The notes beneath the pieces were generated by a model, which was not told the origin of the DNA, ran no database searches, and was given only the letters and a program-made list of their open reading frames with translations. A stretch of 64,000 bases of DNA, from the NCBI GenBank assembly GCA_018402585.1, contig JAGYIO010000001.1, forward strand, positions 248,001-312,000. The letters are read 5' to 3'. The position numbers and the translations under genes are program-made. Below, piece by piece: positions 19,216 to 58,044 of the stretch. Each line of letters begins with the position of its first letter. Position 1 is the first letter of the stretch. The DNA is from Chthoniobacterales bacterium. GTDB lineage: Bacteria > Verrucomicrobiota > Verrucomicrobiia > Chthoniobacterales > JACTMZ01.

Positions 19216-19359
19216 TCCGGGGCAACCTGCCCTCGCCTTCTCCTCCGCAAAGGGTCAAAGCCCCAAAGCTCAAAGGGTAACTTTCCGGCGCCGCCAGAGC
19301 AGCCACCCCGCTCCGGCCACGGCCAGCAGCGCGTAGGTCGATGGCTCGGGGACGGTGGC
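19216..19359. repeat. 144-bp duplicated 3' segment, copy 1
   Basis: Matches 24839-24982 with four mismatches. It spans the downstream flank, stop codon and PEP-CTERM-coding end of two SUMF1-like genes and stops just where the variable-repeat-like region begins. Confidence 0.8.
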
Positions 19360-20250
19360 AACACGGAATCCCACGTAGCCGTCCTCGACCGTGGGGTCAA
19401 CGCCGTTGCGGTGGGAAGACGGAAGGAAGGTCGCGTTGAAGTTCCAAGAGCCCCCGCGGGTGACCCGGTTGGAACCGGTCACCGCGTCATTCCATTCGAT
19501 CACGTTGCCGCCTTGGTCGAAGGTGGCATAAGCACTGTCGCTCGCGCTGAAGGCGCCGGCATCGGTCAGGTAATTCTGCGTGCCGGAGTAGGTCGACGAC
19601 TGCGTGACGGAATAAACTCCATTGTTGTAGTTGGCCTGATTGGCCGCCCCGCCGACCGCGTTGCCCGGGGCACTGTCGCTCTGGGTCGGATAATCCCAGT
19701 AACCGGCATTGGTGCCGCCACCCTTGTAGTAGGCGGCCTTATACCACTCGTCCTCGCTGGGCATCCACCAAGTCGCCCCGGCGTTCTTGGTGAAGCTGAC
19801 CCCGCTGGTCGCCCCGTTGAGGGTGTAAGCACCCGTCTCCGTGCTTGCCCCATTGGTCGCGCCATTGTTCATCCAGTTGGCAAAACGGGCCGCATCAAAC
19901 CAACTCACATAAGTAATTGGCCGGGTGCCACTGCCCGACACCGAATAAGAATAACTCCCACTGCTTCCGGTCCGCGTAATTCCAGCAATGTTCAGACTCG
20001 TCGCCATACCCGAGTTGTAAAGCGAGTAAGTGTCTGTCGCCGCCACGGCATTGAGAAAGGTGGTGTATTGCCCGATGGTCACCTCGTATTTGCCGAGGGC
20101 GAAGACATCGGCCACCGCACCGTAGGTGGTGGTGTCGGCCGCGTTGCCCGCATCGCCCACCGTGACCGTGTCGATCGTGAGCAGCGCCGCCTGGAGGTTG
20201 AAGTTAAGGGTCAAGGCGGCGAGCGCCAAGAGCAGGCTGGTTTTTTTCAT
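19270..20250 (-). CDS. SUMF1/FGE-fold PEP-CTERM protein; probable older DGR target
   Basis: 326 residues. Signal peptide MKKTSLLLALAALTLNFNLQ; SUMF1/formylglycine-generating-enzyme fold (a C-type-lectin-like fold) from about 30 to 300 with TYGAVADVFALGKYEVTIGQ, YVSWFDAARFANWMN and MPSEDEWYKAAYYKGG; then PEP-CTERM tail VPEPSTYALLAVAGAG with RRR. Catalytic cysteines of true sulfatase-modifying enzymes were not seen, so a binding role is likelier. The last part of the fold (W to GFRVA) aligns without gaps to the template repeat of the DGR at 54.5 kb, with 19 of 25 differences at template adenines. Upstream is the 1384-residue secreted protein, 86 bp away on the same strand. The long in-frame extension upstream of this ATG is not coding. 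Confidence 0.85.
   Translation of the reverse strand: MKKTSLLLALAALTLNFNLQAALLTIDTVTVGDAGNAADTTTYGAVADVFALGKYEVTIGQYTTFLNAVAATDTYSLYNSGMATSLNIAGITRTGSSGSYSYSVSGSGTRPITYVSWFDAARFANWMNNGATNGASTETGAYTLNGATSGVSFTKNAGATWWMPSEDEWYKAAYYKGGGTNAGYWDYPTQSDSAPGNAVGGAANQANYNNGVYSVTQSSTYSGTQNYLTDAGAFSASDSAYATFDQGGNVIEWNDAVTGSNRVTRGGSWNFNATFLPSSHRNGVDPTVEDGYVGFRVATVPEPSTYALLAVAGAGWLLWRRRKVTL
19357..19458 (-). repeat. Variable-repeat-like segment, drifted
   Basis: Ungapped alignment to template repeat 54500-54601. Of 25 mismatches, 19 are at template adenines (coding strand) and 6 at other bases. The match decays beyond the SSR-like flank, where this gene reads VTRGGSW instead of GLRGGSW. Confidence 0.65.
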
Positions 20251-24838: not shown

Positions 24839-24982
24839 TCCGGGGCAACCTGCCCTCGCCTTCTCCTTCGCAAAGGGTCAAAGCCCCAAAGTTCAAAGGG
24901 AAACTTTCCGGCGCCGCCAGAGCAGCCACCCCGCTCCGGCCATGGCCAGCAGCGCGTAGGTCGATGGCTCGGGGACGGTGGC
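24839..24982. repeat. 144-bp duplicated 3' segment, copy 2
   Basis: Partner of 19216-19359, four mismatches. Confidence 0.8.
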
Positions 24983-25904
24983 GAGACGAAAACCGATGAA
25001 GCTGTTCTCGTCCGACGGGGCGGCCGTGGTCCTGAAGGAGGACGACAAGAAGAACGCGTCGAAGAGCCAGTTGCCGCCCCGAAGCCCACGAGACGAGCCG
25101 GCAGCACCCGTGAGATCGTTCCATTCATGTAAGTTGCCGCTCATGTCAAAGGCACCGTAGGCACTCGCTCCGCCATTTGCGCCCACCGTCGTCACGTTGC
25201 CGTCTTGGCTATTCCAATCGGCTCCCTTGTTGTAGTTCGCGAAATTGCCCGTGTTCCCGGCCGAGCCGATTCCGGTCGCTTCCCGCCGTCACCGTTCTCG
25301 GAGCCGTGTCGCTCTGTGTGGCGTAGTCCCAGTAGCCCGCGTTCGTGCCGCCGCCCTTGTAGTACGCCGCCTTGTACCACTGATCTTCCGTCGGCAGAAA
25401 ATATAACGCTCCCGGGTTCACGGCCACGGCATTGCCGGTCGTCGCCCCGTTGAGCGTGTACGCCCCCGTCTCCGTGTCTCCCGAGCCCTGACCGTTCTGG
25501 AGCCAGTTGGCCACCCGCGCCGCGTCGAACCAACTCACGTAGTTCACCGGCTTGTCGCCCATGTTCGCCTTGACTGCGTAGGTATACGACCCCGACGAAC
25601 CGCTTCGCGTGATGCCGCCACGGGCGTTGCTGCCCATGGCCCCGCTGTAGAGCGAGTAGGGGTCGGTCGCCGCCACGGCGTTCAGGAAGGCCGCATACTG
25701 CGAGTTTTGGAACTCAAACTTCATGATCTGGAACGAGTCGGCCACGGCACCGTATCCGGTGGTATCAGCCGCATTCCCCGGATCACCCACCGTCACCCAG
25801 TCGATGGTGATCAGCGCCGCCTGCACGGTGCCGGCAGAGGAGAGAAGGCCCGCCGCGATAAGCATCGCGAGAAAGCCGGTGAGGAATGAGGATGTTTTTT
25901 TCAT
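24893..25904 (-). pseudogene. Frameshifted SUMF1/FGE-fold PEP-CTERM gene
   Basis: Two frames together form one SUMF1-like PEP-CTERM protein. The 5' frame (25209-25904) has signal peptide MKKTSSFLTGFLAMLIAAGL and the fold up to YWDYATQSDTAPRTVTAG; the 3' part continues in another frame with GSAGNTGNFANYNKG, MSGNLHEWNDL, the variable-repeat-like end and VPEPSTYALLAMAGAG. The shift lies near 25275-25282, equal to one extra base or two missing. It could be a true mutation or a sequencing error. Its variable region aligns to the DGR template without gaps but with many non-adenine changes (about 15 of 38), so it has long been out of the diversification cycle. Confidence 0.75.
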
Positions 25905-28453: not shown

Positions 28454-29446
28454 TTATGGGCGCCGGCGGCGCAGGACGAAGCCAACCAAGCCGGCAGTCG
28501 AGATGGCGAGTAGCGCGTAGGTGCTCGGTTCGGGGACGGTCATGGCCACGGCGACCGTGAGGTAGGCGCCCGCCAGTCCGTAGTCGCTCCCGACACCGCC
28601 TGAGAGACCGCCCCAAACATTGGTTCCTTGATATTGGCTGTAGGCCAACTCCAGAGTGTTGTAGACAACCGCCGAGTTCGTGGGATCGGGGATCTCAACC
28701 TCCCAGATTCTACCCGTGGTGAACTTGGCGCCCCCGATCGGATACGGATCCGTGCCTCGCGTGGGATCCAAGGGATCCACGAAATGAAGCTGGGCATTCT
28801 CGTCGAAATCAATGCGACCATTCCCATTCGAGTCGATCCAATCGAACCCTCCGAGCGAAACGGCATGCCCCGCTTTGAGGCTCGTATAGGTCAATCCGAG
28901 AACGGTGCCGCTGCCGGAGGTCAGCGAGTCGTAGAGGAATCGCCAAGTGGGGAGGTTGTCGGCGATGGTGGCAGGGCGGAGCTCGGGAGCGGGCGGGTTC
29001 AGAGGACTATCCCAGGCAGCACTCGGGATCATTCCAGAGAAATGCACATTAGTGAAACCCAAGTCCTGCACGACGTATTTGTTCAGCCCGAAGTGCAGAC
29101 GGTTGTAGGGGGTTCCTAAAGTCGGCGAGGTGTTCATGTATCCGGGCGCACTGAGCGTGGTGTCTACGTCGATCCAATTCGTATACGTCGTGCCGGTCAG
29201 ATTCGTCCCGAAGTAGTCGGGCGCGGCCTTCTGCAGATACGTCATCACGTTGACGCTGGAGGTGGGGACACAGGCATTATGGCCTACGAAGTTGAAATTC
29301 GGTGTGTTGAGGCTGAATTGATCCAGCCATCCGAAAGAGGAGACATCGAGGATCGAAGTGTAGTTCGTCTGGGCCCTGGCTGGAGTGGACAAGAGCAGGA
29401 GTAAGAGAACCCCGGACAGAAGGCGAAGGTCGTGTCTGGCAAGCAT
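28454..29446 (-). CDS. C39-like (papain-fold) PEP-CTERM protein 1
   Basis: 330 residues. Signal peptide MLARHDLRLLSGVLLLLLLS with cleavage after ARA; GHNACVPTSSVNVMTYLQ with a candidate catalytic cysteine near residue 59; KAGHAVSLGGFDWID with a candidate histidine near 200; LHFVDPLDPTRG with an acidic residue after it. This C-H-D order fits the peptidase C39-like fold, though activity is not proven. PEP-CTERM tail VPEPSTYALLAISTAGLVGF with RRRR. A paralogue lies directly upstream on the same strand (115 bp apart). Confidence 0.8.
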   Translation of the reverse strand: MLARHDLRLLSGVLLLLLLSTPARAQTNYTSILDVSSFGWLDQFSLNTPNFNFVGHNACVPTSSVNVMTYLQKAAPDYFGTNLTGTTYTNWIDVDTTLSAPGYMNTSPTLGTPYNRLHFGLNKYVVQDLGFTNVHFSGMIPSAAWDSPLNPPAPELRPATIADNLPTWRFLYDSLTSGSGTVLGLTYTSLKAGHAVSLGGFDWIDSNGNGRIDFDENAQLHFVDPLDPTRGTDPYPIGGAKFTTGRIWEVEIPDPTNSAVVYNTLELAYSQYQGTNVWGGLSGGVGSDYGLAGAYLTVAVAMTVPEPSTYALLAISTAGLVGFVLRRRRP

Positions 29447-29561
29447 GCGGGGTGGAATATCGTGCCTGGCGGATGAATGTCAAGTCGTCCGCCGGCGGAA
29501 TAGCTCGTGCCCGAACCTGATCTGGTCGCACTTTTCGCCGGACGCCAAAACTTCGCGCGCC

Positions 29562-30545
29562 TTATGGGCGCCGGCGGCGCAGGACGAAGCCAACCAAGCC
29601 GGCAGTCGAGATGGCGAGTAGCGCATAGGTGCTCGGTTCGGGGACGGTCATGGCCACGGCGGCCGTGAGGTAGGCGCCCGCCCAGCCGCCGCGCCCGCCA
29701 CCGCCTGAGAGACCGCCCCAGAGATTCGTCCCAACATACGGCTCATACGCCAACACCAGCGTGTTGTAGACAACCGCCGAGTTCGTGGGATCGGGGACCT
29801 CCGCCTCCCAGATTCTGCCCGAGGTGAATTGGGCACCTCCGCTGGGATCCGTGCCTCGCGTGGGGTCCGAGGGATCCACGAAATAGAGCTGGGCATTCTC
29901 GTCAAAATCAACGCGACCATTTCCATTCAGGTCAGTCCAATCGAAACCCCCGAGCGAGACGGCATGCCCAGCGCTGGAGTCTATCCAACGCATCGTGAGA
30001 ACGGTGCCGCTTCCGGAGGTCAGCGAGTCGTAGAGGAATTGCCAAGTGGGGAGGCTGTCGGCGATGGTGGCAGGGCGGGGCTCGGGAGCGGGATTGGCCT
30101 GATTTTCCCAGGGACTCGGGATCATTCCCGAGAACTGCACCTCGGTGAAACCCTTGTTCTGCACGACGTATTTGTTCAGCCCGAAGTGCAGGTGGTTATT
30201 TAAGGTTCCAATAGTTTGGGTAGTGTTCATGTAATCGGGTGAAATAAGCGTGGCATCCACACCGATCCAATCCGCATACGTCGAGCCGGTCAGGTTCGTC
30301 CCGAAGTAACCGGGAGCGATGTTCTGCAGATACGTCATCGTGTTGACACTGGAGGTGGGGACACAGGCATCATGGCCGATGAAGTTGAAATCCGGCGTGT
30401 TGAGGCTGTATTGATCCAGCCATCCATAAGAGCTGACATCTTGGATCGCCGTGTAGGTGGTCTGAGCCTTGGACGGCGGGGCCAAGAGCACGAGGGTAAG
30501 GATGCCGAACAAGAGACGGCAAACGCGTTGGTTGGCTGAGGTCAA
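29562..30545 (-). CDS. C39-like (papain-fold) PEP-CTERM protein 2
   Basis: 327 residues, paralogue of the gene just downstream. It keeps the candidate catalytic residues (GHDACVPTSSVNTMTYLQ; AGHAVSLGGFDWTD; LYFVDPSDPTRG) and an identical C-terminal PEP-CTERM tail. The 3' coding ends and downstream flanks of the two genes are nearly identical in DNA, so they arose by tandem duplication or are kept alike by gene conversion. The first possible start is a TTG, which gives TSANQRVCRLLFGILTLVLL as signal peptide; no ATG fits, so start confidence is modest. Confidence 0.78.
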   Translation of the reverse strand: MTSANQRVCRLLFGILTLVLLAPPSKAQTTYTAIQDVSSYGWLDQYSLNTPDFNFIGHDACVPTSSVNTMTYLQNIAPGYFGTNLTGSTYADWIGVDATLISPDYMNTTQTIGTLNNHLHFGLNKYVVQNKGFTEVQFSGMIPSPWENQANPAPEPRPATIADSLPTWQFLYDSLTSGSGTVLTMRWIDSSAGHAVSLGGFDWTDLNGNGRVDFDENAQLYFVDPSDPTRGTDPSGGAQFTSGRIWEAEVPDPTNSAVVYNTLVLAYEPYVGTNLWGGLSGGGGRGGWAGAYLTAAVAMTVPEPSTYALLAISTAGLVGFVLRRRRP

Positions 30546-53034: not shown

Positions 53035-53048
53035 GGTAAATCCTCCGA

Positions 53049-53114
53049 GGTGGATCGCGCCGTCCCGGCGCGATTTTCCAGTCCGCAAATCGCGCTCGGA
53101 GAGCGCGATCCACC
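53049..53114. repeat. REPIN-like element, GTGGATCGCG family, copy 2
   Basis: Starts GGTGGATCGCGCC, ends GCGCGATCCACC; hairpins ATCGCGCC/GGCGCGAT and ATCGCGCTC/GAGCGCGAT. Confidence 0.7.
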
Positions 53115-53118
53115 TTTT

Positions 53119-53142
53119 GTAGCGTCGCCGTCCCCGGCGACG
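53119..53142. repeat. REP-like single hairpin, GTAGCGTCGCCG family, copy 1
   Basis: GTAG followed by CGTCGCCG/CGGCGACG hairpin. Second copy at 54128. Confidence 0.65.
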
Positions 53143-53180
53143 ACCGTTAGAACGTTTTCAATTCAACTCATTACAGTTCC

Positions 53181-53245
53181 TGTAGCCGCGGCACTCTGTG
53201 CCGCTCTGGGCTTACAGATGTGCGGCACAGAGTGCCGCGGCTACA
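53181..53245. repeat. REPIN-like element, GTAGCCGCGGCAC family
   Basis: Two 24-base arms in perfect inverted orientation (begin TGTAGCCGCGGCAC, end GTGCCGCGGCTACA). Each arm is also a hairpin, GCGGCAC-TCT-GTGCCGC. Confidence 0.8.
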
Positions 53246-53288: not shown

Positions 53289-54173
53289 TCAGCGGGCCGC
53301 CGCCTTCTCCCTCGCCAGCAAAAACCGCAACGCCACCGGCAACCTCTTCGCCCATGCCTTCTCGTTGTGCTCGTCGCCTTCTCCTGGATTCCACAAAAAA
53401 TCTTTCCCCTCAACGTATCCCTGCCCCAGCAGTGCCTCACGCACCGCGAGCGCATCCTGCCAATAGTCGCCGGTCAGATTCCCTTTTTCCCCGGTCCCCA
53501 TGTCCATGTAGATGCGCAGATTGTCTTTCTTCGTTCCCTCCATCACCGACTTCATGAAATTCGGACTCGTCCAAAACGCCGGGGAGAAAACGCCCACGGC
53601 GCCGAATGCATCCGTATTCAGTCCAAGCCAGAGCGAAACGAGTCCGCCCATCGACGATCCGGCCACCGCGGTGCATTCTTTTTCCGGAAGCGTGCGGTAT
53701 TTCGCATCGATCGCCGGCTTCACTTTTTCCAGAAGGAACTTTGCATAGCGGTCACAAATCCCGTTGCCGCGCGGCGGGTCGCGCGGGTTCGCATCGGACG
53801 GCGGTTGGTATTCGGTCATGCGCGCCTTGCCGCCATTGGCTTCGTTGTTCGGCACGGCCACGATGATCGCCTCGCGCATCCGCCCCGCCGCGATCTCCGT
53901 TGCCGCTGCATCCTCCGCAAACCAACACCCGAACGACCCACCCGGACGGAACACATTCTGCCCATCATGAAAATAAACCACCGGATACCGCCGCTCCCCC
54001 TCGTTATAGCCCGCCGGCAGCCAAACCCGCACCTCACGCGAAGGAATGAGAGCATCATCCGACTCCACCATCACCGTCTCGATCCGCCCATCCGCCCAAG
54101 CATTCACCACCACCAGCATCAAGACCTGTAGCGTCGCCGTCCCCGGCGACGGCCGTTTCCTTCCGATCTTCAT
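53289..54173 (-). CDS. Exported esterase, enterochelin-esterase/esterase D-like
   Basis: 294 residues. After an N-terminal export signal come IETVMVESDDALIPSREVRV, YPVVYFHDGQNVF, the nucleophile elbow in VAGSSMGGLVSLWL (Ser), and EGDEHNEKAW with the His; this is the alpha/beta-hydrolase esterase PF00756 group. The start is uncertain: MKIGRKRPSPGTATLQVLML gives a proper signal peptide whose n-region is coded by a REP repeat; the next ATG at 54119 gives a shorter hydrophobic start. The longer frame up to 54590 runs through the DGR template repeat and is rejected. Substrate unknown. Confidence 0.75.
   Translation of the reverse strand: MKIGRKRPSPGTATLQVLMLVVVNAWADGRIETVMVESDDALIPSREVRVWLPAGYNEGERRYPVVYFHDGQNVFRPGGSFGCWFAEDAAATEIAAGRMREAIIVAVPNNEANGGKARMTEYQPPSDANPRDPPRGNGICDRYAKFLLEKVKPAIDAKYRTLPEKECTAVAGSSMGGLVSLWLGLNTDAFGAVGVFSPAFWTSPNFMKSVMEGTKKDNLRIYMDMGTGEKGNLTGDYWQDALAVREALLGQGYVEGKDFLWNPGEGDEHNEKAWAKRLPVALRFLLAREKAAAR
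54128..54150. repeat. REP-like single hairpin, GTAGCGTCGCCG family, copy 2
   Basis: Same sequence as 53119-53142 through the hairpin; lies in the 5' codons of the esterase gene. 54174-54497 otherwise shows no gene. Confidence 0.6.
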
Positions 54174-54497
54174 CCACCCCTCTGTGCCCTCCGCGCCCTC
54201 TGCGGTCAATCTCCCGAAGCAAAAACACCCGCTCCATGTGGCGCGGGTGTCAAGGCAAGCTGATCGACCTCTGATCACAAGACTTCCTGCCCAATGCCGC
54301 GCGCGCACTAGGGCGGCTCCGGCGACGGCTTTCGGAACCCTACTGGCCGCCGCCGACGCCTCTGTCTTATTCGACCCGTCGGGATTTCTCCCGTCGGCTC
54401 GGGATGGCGGGCTGGTCCCCGAGACGGCGCTGCTGCGGAAGCTTTGTCCCACCCCCGCCGATCGGGCCGTGTGGACCGGCATCATGTTTTCAGGGGC

Positions 54498-54620
54498 CTG
54501 GCAACGCGGAACCCAATGTTGTTGTTCTCGTTCGTGGGGTCGTTGTTGTTGCGGTTGGAAGACTGCAGGTTGTTGTCGTTGTTGTTCCAAGAGCCCCCGC
54601 GGAGGCCCCGGGAGGAACCG
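54498..54620 (-). repeat. DGR template repeat (TR)
   Basis: 123 bp, 33 bp after the RT stop. Read in the coding strand it has 13 AAC codons (for example SWNNNDNN and NRNNNDP), the adenine-rich pattern of DGR templates. It aligns without gaps to 56251-56373: 23 differences, all at the 33 template adenines, none among the other 90 bases. The 21 bases at the 3' side (ending GTTCCGCGTTGCCAG) and 34 at the 5' side are identical, fitting the homing anchors. Confidence 0.95.
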
Positions 54621-54653
54621 GCAGTTTTGCCGCCCGCCACCCTTGGAAGTTAT

Positions 54654-55688
54654 TCAAGCGGCAAACAACTGCCGGCGCAAGCGCCAGCTTTGGGCATGCG
54701 CGGCATGGCCGATCCACGCCTGCACCGTCGCCCGCACATCCGAGGCCATGCACTCGCCCCGCTGCCATTGCCATCTGCGGTGGCGGAATTTTCGCTCAAA
54801 CCGCCGCACGCTCGCCCGGCGAATGCGAATCCTCCCGTCCGAGCGGACGACAAACCCGCAGAAATCCACGCCCTGCCCGGAGTGGCACAGGCGGTATTTG
54901 TCGGGATGGATCTCCAGGCGCAGCCCGCGCAAATAATCCCGCGCCGCCTCGCCCCACGCCCGCACGGTCCTGCGATCCGGTCCGAAAATCAGAAAGTCGT
55001 CCACATAACGCACGTAACCTTTCACCCGGAGTTCCTGCTTCACAAAGTGGTCAAATCCGTCGAGGTGGATGTTGGCAAAGAATTGGCTGGTCAGGTTGCC
55101 GATCGGCAGGCCGCAGCCCGTGTCGCGGACATCGAAGAGCGATTCTCCATAGACCCGCCGCGTGCTGTCGGCGTGGCTGGCCAGGATGGTGCCGACCAGA
55201 CCGAGCACGGCGGGATCGGCAATCGCCCGACCGATCCGCTGCAGGAGGATGGCGTGATCGATGCTCGGAAAATACCGGCGGATATCGCACTTCATCGCAC
55301 AGGGGAAACGGCGCGCGTATTCCGCCGCCCGGCGCATCCCCGCATGCGTGCCCTTGCCCGGCCGGCAGGCAAAGCTGTCCTCGATGAACCGCGGCTCGAA
55401 GATCGGTTGGAGCACCCGCACCAGCGCATGGTGCACCACCCGGTCCCGGAATGGTGCCGCCGCCACCACCCGCTCCTTGGGCTCGTAGATTTTGAAATAG
55501 GTGTAGGCACCGGGACGGTATTCGCCACTCACCAACTCATCGTGCAGCCGCCACACCTCCGTCTCCCAGCGAGCAAAGAACCTCGCCGCCGAACTCCGGC
55601 CCCGCTTGCCCCGCATGGACTCCCTCGCCGCAGCCATCAGGTTTTCCGAGGCGACGACCTGCTCCCAGAGATGGCGGCGGGTTTTCAT
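54654..55688 (-). CDS. DGR reverse transcriptase
   Basis: 344 residues from the ATG giving MKTRRHLWEQVVASENLMAA. Reverse-transcribes TR RNA with errors opposite adenine. RT domain: AMKCDIRRYFPSIDHAILL (motif A aspartate), GCGLPIGNLTSQFFANIHLD with the DGR-type IGNxTSQ in place of the QGxxxSP of other RTs, and the catalytic YVRYVDDFLIFG (YVDD, about 222-225). No maturase or endonuclease domain. The N-terminal 100 residues of the longer frame are antisense-frame reading of the avd gene. Its ATG overlaps the avd stop (ATGA). Confidence 0.93.
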   Translation of the reverse strand: MKTRRHLWEQVVASENLMAAARESMRGKRGRSSAARFFARWETEVWRLHDELVSGEYRPGAYTYFKIYEPKERVVAAAPFRDRVVHHALVRVLQPIFEPRFIEDSFACRPGKGTHAGMRRAAEYARRFPCAMKCDIRRYFPSIDHAILLQRIGRAIADPAVLGLVGTILASHADSTRRVYGESLFDVRDTGCGLPIGNLTSQFFANIHLDGFDHFVKQELRVKGYVRYVDDFLIFGPDRRTVRAWGEAARDYLRGLRLEIHPDKYRLCHSGQGVDFCGFVVRSDGRIRIRRASVRRFERKFRHRRWQWQRGECMASDVRATVQAWIGHAAHAQSWRLRRQLFAA

Positions 55689-56050
55689 GGCGCCTTTGTC
55701 TTTGCTTCCGCCTTCCACCAGCCGCCGACCATTTTGCCGCACTCGGTGAGGCAGCGGGCACTGTGCGCGAATTGCGCGGACGAGAGCAGGTTGCGGTCCT
55801 TGCACATCCGCACCGTCCAGCGCACCACCTCCATTTTCCGGTTCGCCGTGGCCAGCAGGGCGCGCTTCTCCCGGCTGTAGGCGGCCTCGACCAGCAACTC
55901 GAGCACCTCCATCACCTGCTGGCTCAACCGCTGGCCGAGCACGTATCGTTGGTTCTTGGGAAAACTCTCCACCCGCTCCAGCACCCACTTGGCGTAATCA
56001 TACCACTTGACCAGAACCACCGGCGCTTCGGGCTTGGTCGATGCGGCCAT
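55685..56050 (-). CDS. avd: DGR accessory protein, bAvd-like four-helix bundle
   Basis: 121 residues from MAASTKPEAPVVLVKWYDYA; a TTG one codon earlier is possible. Mostly helical: LVKWYDYAKWVLERVESFPK, QRYVLGQRLSQQVMEVLELL, VEAAYSREKRALLATANRKM, and SSAQFAHSARCLTECGKMVG, basic overall. This matches the Avd/23S-rRNA-IVP four-helix-bundle family, whose members form a pentamer that binds the RT and the template RNA. Position between target and RT, and ATGA overlap with the RT, are typical. Confidence 0.88.
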   Translation of the reverse strand: MAASTKPEAPVVLVKWYDYAKWVLERVESFPKNQRYVLGQRLSQQVMEVLELLVEAAYSREKRALLATANRKMEVVRWTVRMCKDRNLLSSAQFAHSARCLTECGKMVGGWWKAEAKTKAP

Positions 56051-56165
56051 CAAATCCAGAGGAAAATTTTCTCCGCCGCTTCGCGGCGATGACCTGCGTC
56101 CTCTCAGGCTTACCCGCCCTTGGTCATGCCCTCACTTTCCCAGCAAAGGGTAAAAGGACCAAAGA

Positions 56166-57152
56166 TCACAGGGTAGCCCTCCGCCGCTTCCAGAAATACA
56201 ACGCTCCAGCTCCCATCAACACCAACACCGCTGTGGAGGGCTCGGGGACGCTGGCAACGCGGAACCCAATGAAGGCGCTCCCGTCCGAGGGGACGAGGCT
56301 GAAGCGGAAGGAAGACTGCAGGATGAAGTCGGAGTTGGCCCAAGAGCCCCCGCGGAGGCCCCGGGAGGAACCGATCACCCCATCGTTCCACTCCCACACG
56401 TTGCCACCTTGATCGAAGGTGTCATAAGCACTGGCGCTGTTGCTGAAGGTACCGGCAGCGGTCAAATAGTTTAGCGTGCTGTCGAGAGTGTTTGACTGCG
56501 TGACGGAATAAACGCCGTTGTTGTAGTTGGCCTGATTGGTCGCCCCGCCGATGAGGTTGCCCGGCGTACTGTCGCTCTGGGTCGGATAATCCCAGTAGCC
56601 GGCATTGGTGCCGCCACCCATGGAGTAAGCGGCCTTATACCATTCATCTTCGCTGGGAATCCACCAATCCGCCCCGGGGTTTTTCGTGATGATCCCCGTC
56701 GTCGCCCCGTTCAGCGTGTAAGCCCCCGTCTCCGTGCTCGCCCCGACGGTCGCACCATTGTTCATCCAATTGGCAAAACGGGCCGCGTCGAACCAACTCA
56801 CGTAAGAAATGGGGCGGTTGCCGCTGCCGAGCGCCGAGTAGGAAAAACTCCCACTGCTCCCCGCTTGGGTGATTCCCGCCATGTTCAGATTCGTTGCCAT
56901 GTTCGGGTTGTAGAGCGAGTAGGTGTCCGTCGCGGCCACGGCATTGAGAAACGTGGTGTATTGCCCGATGGTCACCTCATACTTCCCAAGGTTGAACTCG
57001 TAGCCAACCGCGCCGTAGCCGGTGGTGTCGGCCGCATTGCCCGCATCGCCCACCGTCACCGTCTCAATGTTGACCAGCGCCTGGGCTTGGAGGTTGAAGA
57101 CGAGGGTGAACGCGGCAAACAACACCGCGAGGAGGAGTGTGCATTTTTTCAT
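56166..57152 (-). CDS. DGR target: SUMF1/C-type-lectin-fold PEP-CTERM protein
   Basis: 328 residues. Signal peptide MKKCTLLLAVLFAAFTLVFN; SUMF1/FGE-like fold (about 28-301) with YEFNLGKYEVTIGQYTTFLN, YVSWFDAARFANWMNNGA, IPSEDEWYKAAYSMGGGTNA; variable repeat at residues about 260-301; then PEP-CTERM tail VPEPSTAVLVLMGAGALYF with KRRR. So the diversified loop is displayed on an exported protein that should be processed by an exosortase and left at or outside the outer membrane. Binding target unknown. avd and RT follow, 115 bp downstream. A 75-bp conserved leader lies upstream. Confidence 0.93.
   Translation of the reverse strand: MKKCTLLLAVLFAAFTLVFNLQAQALVNIETVTVGDAGNAADTTGYGAVGYEFNLGKYEVTIGQYTTFLNAVAATDTYSLYNPNMATNLNMAGITQAGSSGSFSYSALGSGNRPISYVSWFDAARFANWMNNGATVGASTETGAYTLNGATTGIITKNPGADWWIPSEDEWYKAAYSMGGGTNAGYWDYPTQSDSTPGNLIGGATNQANYNNGVYSVTQSNTLDSTLNYLTAAGTFSNSASAYDTFDQGGNVWEWNDGVIGSSRGLRGGSWANSDFILQSSFRFSLVPSDGSAFIGFRVASVPEPSTAVLVLMGAGALYFWKRRRATL
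56251..56373 (-). repeat. DGR variable repeat (VR)
   Basis: 123 bp at the 3' end of the lectin-fold domain, followed by about 85 bp encoding the PEP-CTERM tail. Differs from TR only at template adenines (23 of 33). Replaces TR asparagine codons with Ala, Ser, Phe, Ile, Leu, Val, Asp and Gly codons. Confidence 0.95.
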
Positions 57153-57241: not shown

Positions 57242-57457
57242 AGCAACAGCTGAAAAATACGGCCCCAGCACTCGCGTGTAAACGAAAAGTTAAGAATTGT
57301 GGTATTATTACACAAAGTCGCGAACTGCGCATGATCCTTTATTCCAAAACCCTGCAACCAACGGGCTCCTGAGAGACCGGAGGCCGGCGATCCGCACCAA
57401 CGAGGCTTAATTCGGAATATTTGTCATGACACCCATTCTGTGGTCTCGACTCTCCAG

Positions 57458-57685
57458 ATGAGCGCCGCCGAAGTCATGAATCTCGCCAAGCAGCTCCCCG
57501 AGAGGGAGGTGCTCGACCTGGCGCGCCTGCTCGACACCTGGACTGCCACGATGGTTGATCAAAAATTCGAAGCTGCCGTCAAATCCGGCGCTTTCGACCA
57601 AATGGCGGCCGATGCCCTGCAAGAGTTGGAGGCCGGGAAGACCATTCCTCTCGATGAAGTCCTCCACGACCCGCGCCTTTCGTAA
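57458..57685 (+). CDS. RelB/addiction-module antitoxin
   Basis: 75 residues from MSAAEVMNLAKQLPEREVLD; a GTG 18 bp upstream is possible. LARLLDTWTATMVDQKFEAA and the C-terminal LEAGKTIPLDEVLHDPRLS are like antitoxins of RelBE-type pairs (the PLDEVL ending is common). The toxin gene overlaps by 32 bp but is truncated, so this antitoxin now lacks a working partner. Confidence 0.6.
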   Translation: MSAAEVMNLAKQLPEREVLDLARLLDTWTATMVDQKFEAAVKSGAFDQMAADALQELEAGKTIPLDEVLHDPRLS

Positions 57686-57815
57686 GGAGCTTTCCGAGTT
57701 GCCGTCGTCCGTTCGCAAGCAAGCCAGGAAGCAATTTCGCTTGTGGCTCGGGAATCCACAGCACCCTTCGGTGCATGACAAACCCGTCGGACAATATTGG
57801 TCGGCGCGGGTAAAC
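57654..57815 (+). pseudogene. Truncated RelE/HigB-like toxin
   Basis: Starts MKSSTTRAFRKELSELPSSV and continues RKQARKQFRLWLGNPQHPSV and QYWSARV, the first two thirds of a RelE-family toxin. After about 57813 the frame continues to 57944 as nonsense that is antisense to an esterase fragment, so the active-site end of the toxin is missing. Confidence 0.6.
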
Positions 57816-57819
57816 GCGA

Positions 57820-57957
57820 CGGCAACCAAACCTGCACCTTGCGCGCCGGAATCGCTTCGTCACCGGACTCGACGAAGATCATCTCGATGCGGCCGTGGGC
57901 CAAAACGCTGGCCGCCGTCGCGATTGTCAGAGCTGCAGCAATAATCCTTCGCGCATC
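57820..57957 (-). pseudogene. 5' fragment of an esterase, paralogue of 53289-54173
   Basis: Reads IIAAALTIATAASVLAHG, then RIEMIFVESGDEAIPARKVQ and VWLP, matching the start of the esterase gene (RIETVMVESDDALIPSREVR, VWLP). Homology ends at WLP where the toxin fragment begins. The bases just upstream (CCTCTGTGCCCTCCGCGCCC) are also shared with the esterase upstream region. Confidence 0.55.
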
Positions 57958-58044
57958 TCCTCTGTGCCCTCCGCGCCCTCCGCGGTCAATCACTTCACCG
58001 CAAAAGATTGACCTTCCTTTCCCATCCACGTGCCATCACGGGCG

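Follow-up and report, generated by a model that had tools for sequence, protein, structure and literature searches.

A chromosomal diversity-generating retroelement in a Chthoniobacterales bacterium whose target carries a PEP-CTERM sorting tail behind the variable region

Tens of thousands of diversity-generating retroelements (DGRs) have been recorded (PMC8144416), and the parts of the literature on which we draw describe their cassette order as variable, with a group in DiGReF having the template repeat (TR) downstream of the reverse transcriptase (RT) gene (PMC3521204). Multiple variable regions (VRs) are reported for 271 of 948 DGRs (PMC6642488), remote variable proteins for cyanobacteria (PMC7517822), and activity in trans, proposed for Thiohalocapsa, together with targets of the FGE type in a further study (PMC10907252). 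Here we consider a locus in a 64,000-nt stretch of DNA, hereafter the window, from a Chthoniobacterales bacterium (contig JAGYIO010000001.1, positions 248,001-312,000; all coordinates below are window positions). The element it holds is a genuine DGR and, with a probability of about 0.88, a chromosomal one that diversifies a secreted, exosortase-sorted protein of the FGE/C-type-lectin-like kind. The class itself is well known; what makes this variant worth study is the sorting tail that follows the VR, together with the conserved spacer RNA and the remote and RT-less copies.

The primary evidence lies in the comparison of the two repeats. The TR (54498..54620, minus strand), 123 bp long with 33 adenines, aligns without gaps to the VR (56251..56373, minus strand) of the target gene T1 (56166..57152, minus strand; 328 aa). 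An earlier note on this DNA had claimed that the differences are confined to adenines, and a recount by script gave the same figures: 23 of the 33 TR adenines are changed (13 A>T, 6 A>G and 4 A>C) and none of the 90 other bases, a distribution having P = 1.8e-17 of arising by chance for all 23 mismatches. The same script applied to the DGR of Bordetella phage BPP-1, the prototype and our positive control, returned 18/25 for adenines and 4/109 for other bases. The boundaries of the repeat are sharp at both ends. With respect to the TR, the residue is altered in 15 of the 40 VR codons (counted by eye), and the AAC-rich template provides codons that cannot turn into stops at its adenine sites. 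Target, avd (55685..56053), RT gene (54654..55688; 344 aa) and TR follow one another in this order on the minus strand, exactly as the note had it; avd and RT overlap by ATGA (avd stop TGA at 55687-55685, RT start ATG at 55688-55686), and the TR starts at 54620, 33 bp beyond the RT stop (54654-54656). All three frames are open and intact. The extent given before, 54498-57152, is right for the core cassette, but the element reaches further, through the spacer RNA lying at 54290-54497 behind the TR; that first reading was also made without the PEP-CTERM tail, the remote VRs and the insertion site described below.

The RT carries the motifs formerly noted as IGNxTSQ and YVDD, the first in the form IGNLTSQ, and scores 66.4 bits with RVT_1 and 384.6 bits with PHROG 1423. 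Its score with the group II intron model is 139.6 bits, below the cut-off of 300, and that with St85, the only retron model matched, is 41.8 bits where 235 would be needed; the DRT models shown likewise gave scores under their cut-offs. In a tree of 29 rows, which included four plasmid group II RTs and no retron RT, the window RT fell on the 18-row side together with those of BPP-1, ANMV-1 and VP58.5, and the four group II RTs on the 11-row side (100/100). Within its side it belongs to a set of six (100/100) with the RTs of loci L047, L048, L049, L053 and L054, the last two taken from a viral collection, which is a collection label only; L050, whose RT is broken into two frames (85% identical to the window RT), was left out. 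We thus rejected the candidacy of a group II intron or retron RT, its separation from the former being given by the tree and from the latter by model score. The closest solved sequence is 8ub7 (1.3e-46), which we take to be the BPP-1 DGR complex (a literature look-up gave no paper), the best group II RT following at 2.2e-25. Avd was recognized by NF033474 DivGenRetAVD (96.2 bits, cut-off 80) and by bAvd PF22296 (61.2 bits, cut-off 40). The claim of a complete DGR is thus upheld by every test run, namely the adenine-only differences, the Avd model and the RT tree.

The target protein combines a hydrophobic, signal-peptide-like N-terminal helix (judged by eye) with a domain at residues 52-300 that matches FGE-sulfatase with 80.8 bits and spans the VR; judged from the sequence, the VR lies in the FGE/C-type-lectin-like domain. 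The 82 bp from the VR to the stop form a coding stretch (56166..56250, minus strand) for a PEP-CTERM sorting tail, matched by PF07589 over residues 301-325 (25.1 bits, cut-off 20.7) and by TIGR02595 (21.9 bits, cut-off 16). The source genome has one match to the exosortase EpsH (PF09721), located elsewhere in the genome (166.6 bits, cut-off 25.7), and its PEP-CTERM matches number 38, 33 of them over the cut-off; 13 of 14 control genomes showed PEP-CTERM matches at a lax limit and 0/14 over the cut-off. We found no paper linking DGRs with PEP-CTERM or exosortase in a search confined to open-licence papers, and this pairing was accordingly not found in the literature searched. (Window positions 28454-30545 encode a tandem pair of PEP-CTERM proteins, similar to each other, 330 aa long and of a different kind.)

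This arrangement is shared by a group of seven loci from Verrucomicrobiota, which comprises the window, L047, L048, L049, L050, L053 and L054. In all seven, the residues behind the VR are V-P-E-P and a hydrophobic, basic terminus, and since this PEP-CTERM-like tail sits behind the VR, the latter ends 70-85 bp before the stop. The corresponding distance is 2 bp in BPP-1, 17 bp in L015, 10 bp in both L055 and L056 and 14 bp in L057; the VR of L014 runs to the gene end and both VRs of the Fischerella plasmid DGR end within a few bp of it (L013 lies at a contig edge). Five relatives were scanned for the Pfam model, L048 being left out, and L047, L050 and L053 passed the cut-off; the target of L048 is split between two frames. 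The adenine bias recurs throughout the group, with differences at adenines and at other bases of 15/33 and 0/95 in L047, 19/29 and 0/96 in L048, 22/35 and 0/91 in L049, 24/35 and 6/102 in L050, 22/33 and 3/92 in L053, and 23/32 and 1/91 in L054. In L048 the cassette runs RT, TR, target, avd. An avd gene is present in six of the seven loci, none being found within 21 kb in L049. In the genome of the latter, frames resembling GIY-YIG and HicBA (L049:9242-10004) occupy the place of avd between target and RT, the hicA-like frame overlapping the RT start (all named by eye).

The spacer region directly behind the TR (54290..54497, minus strand) contains six predicted helices. Eight loci (the window and seven relatives) were aligned without structure, and a structure of 38 pairs was derived from the same alignment with RNAalifold, which favours the following statistics somewhat: the pairing cells amounted to 91.1% versus 77.1% in shuffles, the pairs changed on both sides to 20 versus 10.6, and the covariation score to 0.419 versus 0.189, none of 500 shuffles reaching as high in any of the three. 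When the partners were slid by 1-3 columns as a control, pairing dropped to at most 48%. Folded by itself, the window spacer does not outperform shuffles (z -0.84), and the case for the structure therefore rests on the alignment. Rfam returned no match over the gathering score for the spacer, only three at chance level. A covariance model run over 147 genomes of the order gave matches in eight. Outside the training loci these include one on contig C7 of genome G041 (116.9 bits), joined to a broken RT, another on C38 of G093 (44.5 bits), near a piece of avd, and a third on C2 of G002 (43.5 bits), directly behind a TR that BLAST had found independently. Correctly positioned but weaker are a match of 20.7 bits that follows the TR of L015 and one of 16.4 bits that follows the RT fragment in a relic on C30 of the source genome; three others, of 18.5-21.0 bits, are in G142, G138 and G120. 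The model reported no match at the TRs of the BPP-1, Fischerella, BalMu-1, ANMV-1 and VP58.5 loci. On the evidence of covariation in aligned sequences, a structured spacer RNA is conserved behind the TR.

A BLAST search with the TR against the source genome (89.6% complete) produced 13 matches at E up to 10, of which five are strong: the TR itself, the VR and three more, which correspond to the ends of the intact FGE/PEP-CTERM paralogues T2, T3 and T4. Their differences from the TR involve adenines and other bases in proportions of 20/33 and 9/90 for T2, 18/33 and 14/90 for T3 and 19/33 and 12/90 for T4, and variation among the three affects 32 of the 33 TR-adenine columns versus 21 of the 90 others (p 2.4e-14). 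T4 (19270..20250, minus strand) lies in the window itself, 35 kb from the cassette, with its older VR at about 19356-19477. The PEP-CTERM scores of T2 and T3 are 16.6 and 20.5 bits as whole proteins, just under the cut-off, and 21.5 and 24.3 bits, over it, in the genome search. A further, decayed FGE/PEP-CTERM paralogue in two reading frames (24896..25874, minus strand; also delimited as 24896-25904) has a VR-like end, with 23/33 adenines and 26/90 other bases changed. L064, L065 and L068 were not counted as VRs, their adenine excess being weak (p 0.03, 0.013 and 0.024), and the paralogue L066, with an alignment score of 0, was not used. No second TR was found in the source assembly, at its completeness given above. 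From these sequence comparisons, the VRs of T2-T4 are best read as old ones written from an earlier TR. Between the mature start and the VR, T1 and T2 (window 56254-57131 and L040:6408-7303) share 672 of 705 positions (95.3%), with two blocks of 100/100 and 99/100 identical bp; since these bodies are near-identical while the signal region and tail (48/84) differ, as does the VR, the shared body looks like a gene-conversion tract.

Incomplete copies of the element are found as well. In the relic of a second DGR on C30 of the source genome (L041:3043-4710) the target has PEP-CTERM, avd is split, and the RT is reduced to its first 64 residues; a trace of the spacer hairpin is left. The RT-less locus of G002 (L106/L112) has a target, 39 residues of avd, TR and spacer, with TR/VR differences at 23/33 adenines and 4/82 other bases, and that on C80 of G041 (L052) has avd, the RT start, TR and spacer. 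Together with C7 of G041 (L044) and G093 (L105), these two keep the spacer without an intact RT, the TR being kept in two of the four. Such loci may have arisen by decay, or they may be served by an RT in trans; C80 of G041 shares its genome with an intact cassette on C47, which would allow trans action. In G007 (L083:4038-7252) a target-like gene reads on past its VR end into a longer, fused C-terminal extension; 2 kb beyond, the T1 tail recurs on its own at 95% identity, and avd, RT and TR are all absent.

Matches to the RT occur in 26 of 97 relatives, with stretches of at least 77% identity restricted, besides the source genome, to G041 and G021; among ten genomes of the same genus there is a match only in G010, which is weak (best 1.6e-18). 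G002 and G006, of this genus, contain 20 and 19 stretches of the FGE/PEP-CTERM family, and no RT was found in either. Eight genomes besides the source have the UbiA neighbour, and five were compared as siblings (G003, G008 and G009 were left out): on one contig in each, the interval between the esterase and UbiA genes shows no match to T1, avd or RT. The empty site of G006, a sibling species, has the two genes about 90 bp apart and contains one exact copy of a 33-bp sequence, plus an imperfect partial copy elsewhere in the stretch. In the window the 33-bp sequence occurs twice (54179..54211 and 57959..57991, plus strand, with one mismatch between them), flanking a 3.8-kb segment with the DGR. 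A divergent fragment of the esterase gene's start is also contained in this segment (57817-57900), which makes target-site duplication and import by recombination equally likely. In the same neighbourhood, a small antitoxin-like gene (57377-57686) is 92.9% identical to its counterpart in G007, neighbouring genes being about 80% identical, and short palindromic and dispersed repeats lie at 53048-53245 and 54127-54157.

If the element works as that of BPP-1 does, then target, avd, RT, TR and spacer would be transcribed together, and the fold behind the TR would recruit the RT-Avd complex and prime cDNA synthesis, as described for the BPP-1 spacer in the cited part of PMC12875486. By the same analogy the TR adenines would be copied with errors and the cDNA would replace the VR in T1. 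The tail suggests that exosortase would cut the exported variant at the PEP motif and that the product would become attached to the cell surface or the extracellular matrix; there the variable face of T1 might bind changing ligands in an adhesin role, which we infer. Paralogues with drifted VRs would be earlier products of the process, kept as a repertoire after the TR had changed.

Several results weigh against this reading. Promoter and terminator scans were uninformative, the former giving one sigma-70-like site versus 0.5 in shuffles and thus no promoter support; structure prediction for the target (six sequences) reached a mean pLDDT of 36.5; no solved structure was matched by sequence for either the target or Avd; and two of the five relatives scanned, L049 and L054, remain below the Pfam cut-off for PEP-CTERM, at 13.5 bits. 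In addition, the 60 bp behind the VR contain no stem of at least 5 bp in six of the seven group loci, window included. In BPP-1 a hairpin at this place is required for retrohoming, and the same source, in the part cited, describes a hairpin or cruciform behind the VR as near-universal among DGRs (PMC3240598); since none of the BPP-1 type was found here, efficient retrohoming is not assured. The scan recovered the BPP-1 hairpin (8 bp at offset 4), stems in L055, L056 and L057 and, within the group, stems of 7 and 5 bp in L050. DNA folding z-scores behind the VR were 0.23 for the window, -1.71 for L047, 0.33 for L048, 1.28 for L049, -3.57 for L050, 1.56 for L053 and 0.66 for L054, compared with -5.36 for BPP-1, -3.25 for L055 and -0.89 for L057, the stem of which is unremarkable by energy. 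The outgroup DGRs L014 and L015 lack both a stem and a tail of this kind, and this speaks against a link between the tail and loss of the hairpin; consequently, the missing hairpin is a lead and not a proven difference. Nor do we take the hairpin as defining DGRs, its necessity having been shown only in BPP-1 and L014 and L015 being without it. The C-terminal position of VRs has been explained by cis-elements that must be intergenic (Roux et al. 2021, the part of PMC8144416 cited here); any such element in the seven-locus group would have to sit within coding sequence.

The large size of the FGE family in the genus might suggest that ordinary divergence of paralogues made the TR/VR differences, but with 23 of 23 mismatches on adenines and the same bias in relatives this drift is refuted by the counts, and we rejected it as having a negligible chance of being true. 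It is also very unlikely that the PEP-CTERM tail is a spurious hydrophobic end and T1 a lipoprotein or free exoprotein: the motif is short and, as said, L049 and L054 fall below the cut-off, but T1 exceeds it (25.1 versus 20.7 bits), VPEP is present in 7/7 loci and the genome possesses an exosortase.

A more serious alternative holds that the DGR has recently stopped, its RT or target site no longer working, so that identity at non-adenine positions would date only the last event. The lack of a hairpin behind the VR and the frequency of RT-less or broken relics (C30 of the source genome, G002, C80 and C7 of G041, G093 and the frame break in the RT of L050) fit this possibility, which nevertheless appears doubtful to us given that all three cassette genes are open and intact and that the cassette VR differs from the TR at 0/90 non-adenine positions versus 9 to 14 in the remote VRs. 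It is from this last comparison (9, 12 and 14/90) that recent activity is inferred; the earlier note's view of the system as active or recently so is a fair one, and to judge by the repeats the DGR has very probably been recently active. The remote VRs could instead still be written in trans by the window cassette, as 18-20 of 33 adenine sites are changed in T2-T4 and trans activity has been proposed for Thiohalocapsa (PMC10907252, in the part cited). We regard this as improbable, because a fresh copy would erase the non-adenine differences, and those of T2-T4 include the 3' end needed for cDNA pairing.

Returning to the diversification of an exosortase-sorted protein, a broader scenario may tentatively be drawn, in which a Verrucomicrobiota lineage coupled its DGR to exosortase sorting and the VR moved inside the gene, target recognition passing to an element in the coding sequence or the VR instead of a hairpin. 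Its products would have built up into a scattered repertoire of variable, lectin-like proteins anchored in the matrix, to which avd-TR-spacer units without an RT of their own would contribute in trans, using one encoded elsewhere in the genome. If the main reading is right, bacteria of this group could sample one new binding surface after another on proteins anchored at the cell surface or in the matrix, and a single RT could leave a family of fixed variants. Since the region behind the VR must code for the tail and shows no hairpin, the system also offers a test of what DGRs need for target recognition, while its spacer RNA with covariation can be compared with that of BPP-1. The genome of L049 carries a strain name, Verrucomicrobiaceae bacterium E54, and this organism may be culturable.

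In comparison with known systems, the locus shares with BPP-1 the RT (33% identical), Avd, TR, VR and adenine-specific differences, together with a structured spacer behind the TR (PMC12875486, in the part cited). It differs in what follows the VR, which in BPP-1 lies 2 bp from the stop with an 8-bp hairpin at +4, whereas the window has 82 coding bp in which no hairpin was found, and also in gene order, mtd-avd-TR-brt in the phage versus TR behind RT here. The earlier note was thus right that the order departs from the phage one, but as a novelty we rejected it, for it is already published for the DiGReF group (PMC3521204) and is shared by the Fischerella plasmid (cyanobacterial) DGR. The latter has the closest RT outside the group in the collections searched (42.7-43.5% identity), its sister position being weakly supported (83/88), and differs in having two VRs close to gene ends and no sorting tail. 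The cellular membrane-bound targets of Roux et al. (2021; PMC8144416) likewise present a VR domain of C-type-lectin type on an exported protein, but in the cited part of that survey the VR is C-terminal and the anchors or signal peptides N-terminal, whereas here a C-terminal sorting tail follows the VR. That tail agrees with PEP-CTERM/EpsH sorting (PMC1569441) in its C-terminal PEP motif, helix and basic end, and in the presence of an exosortase in the genome.

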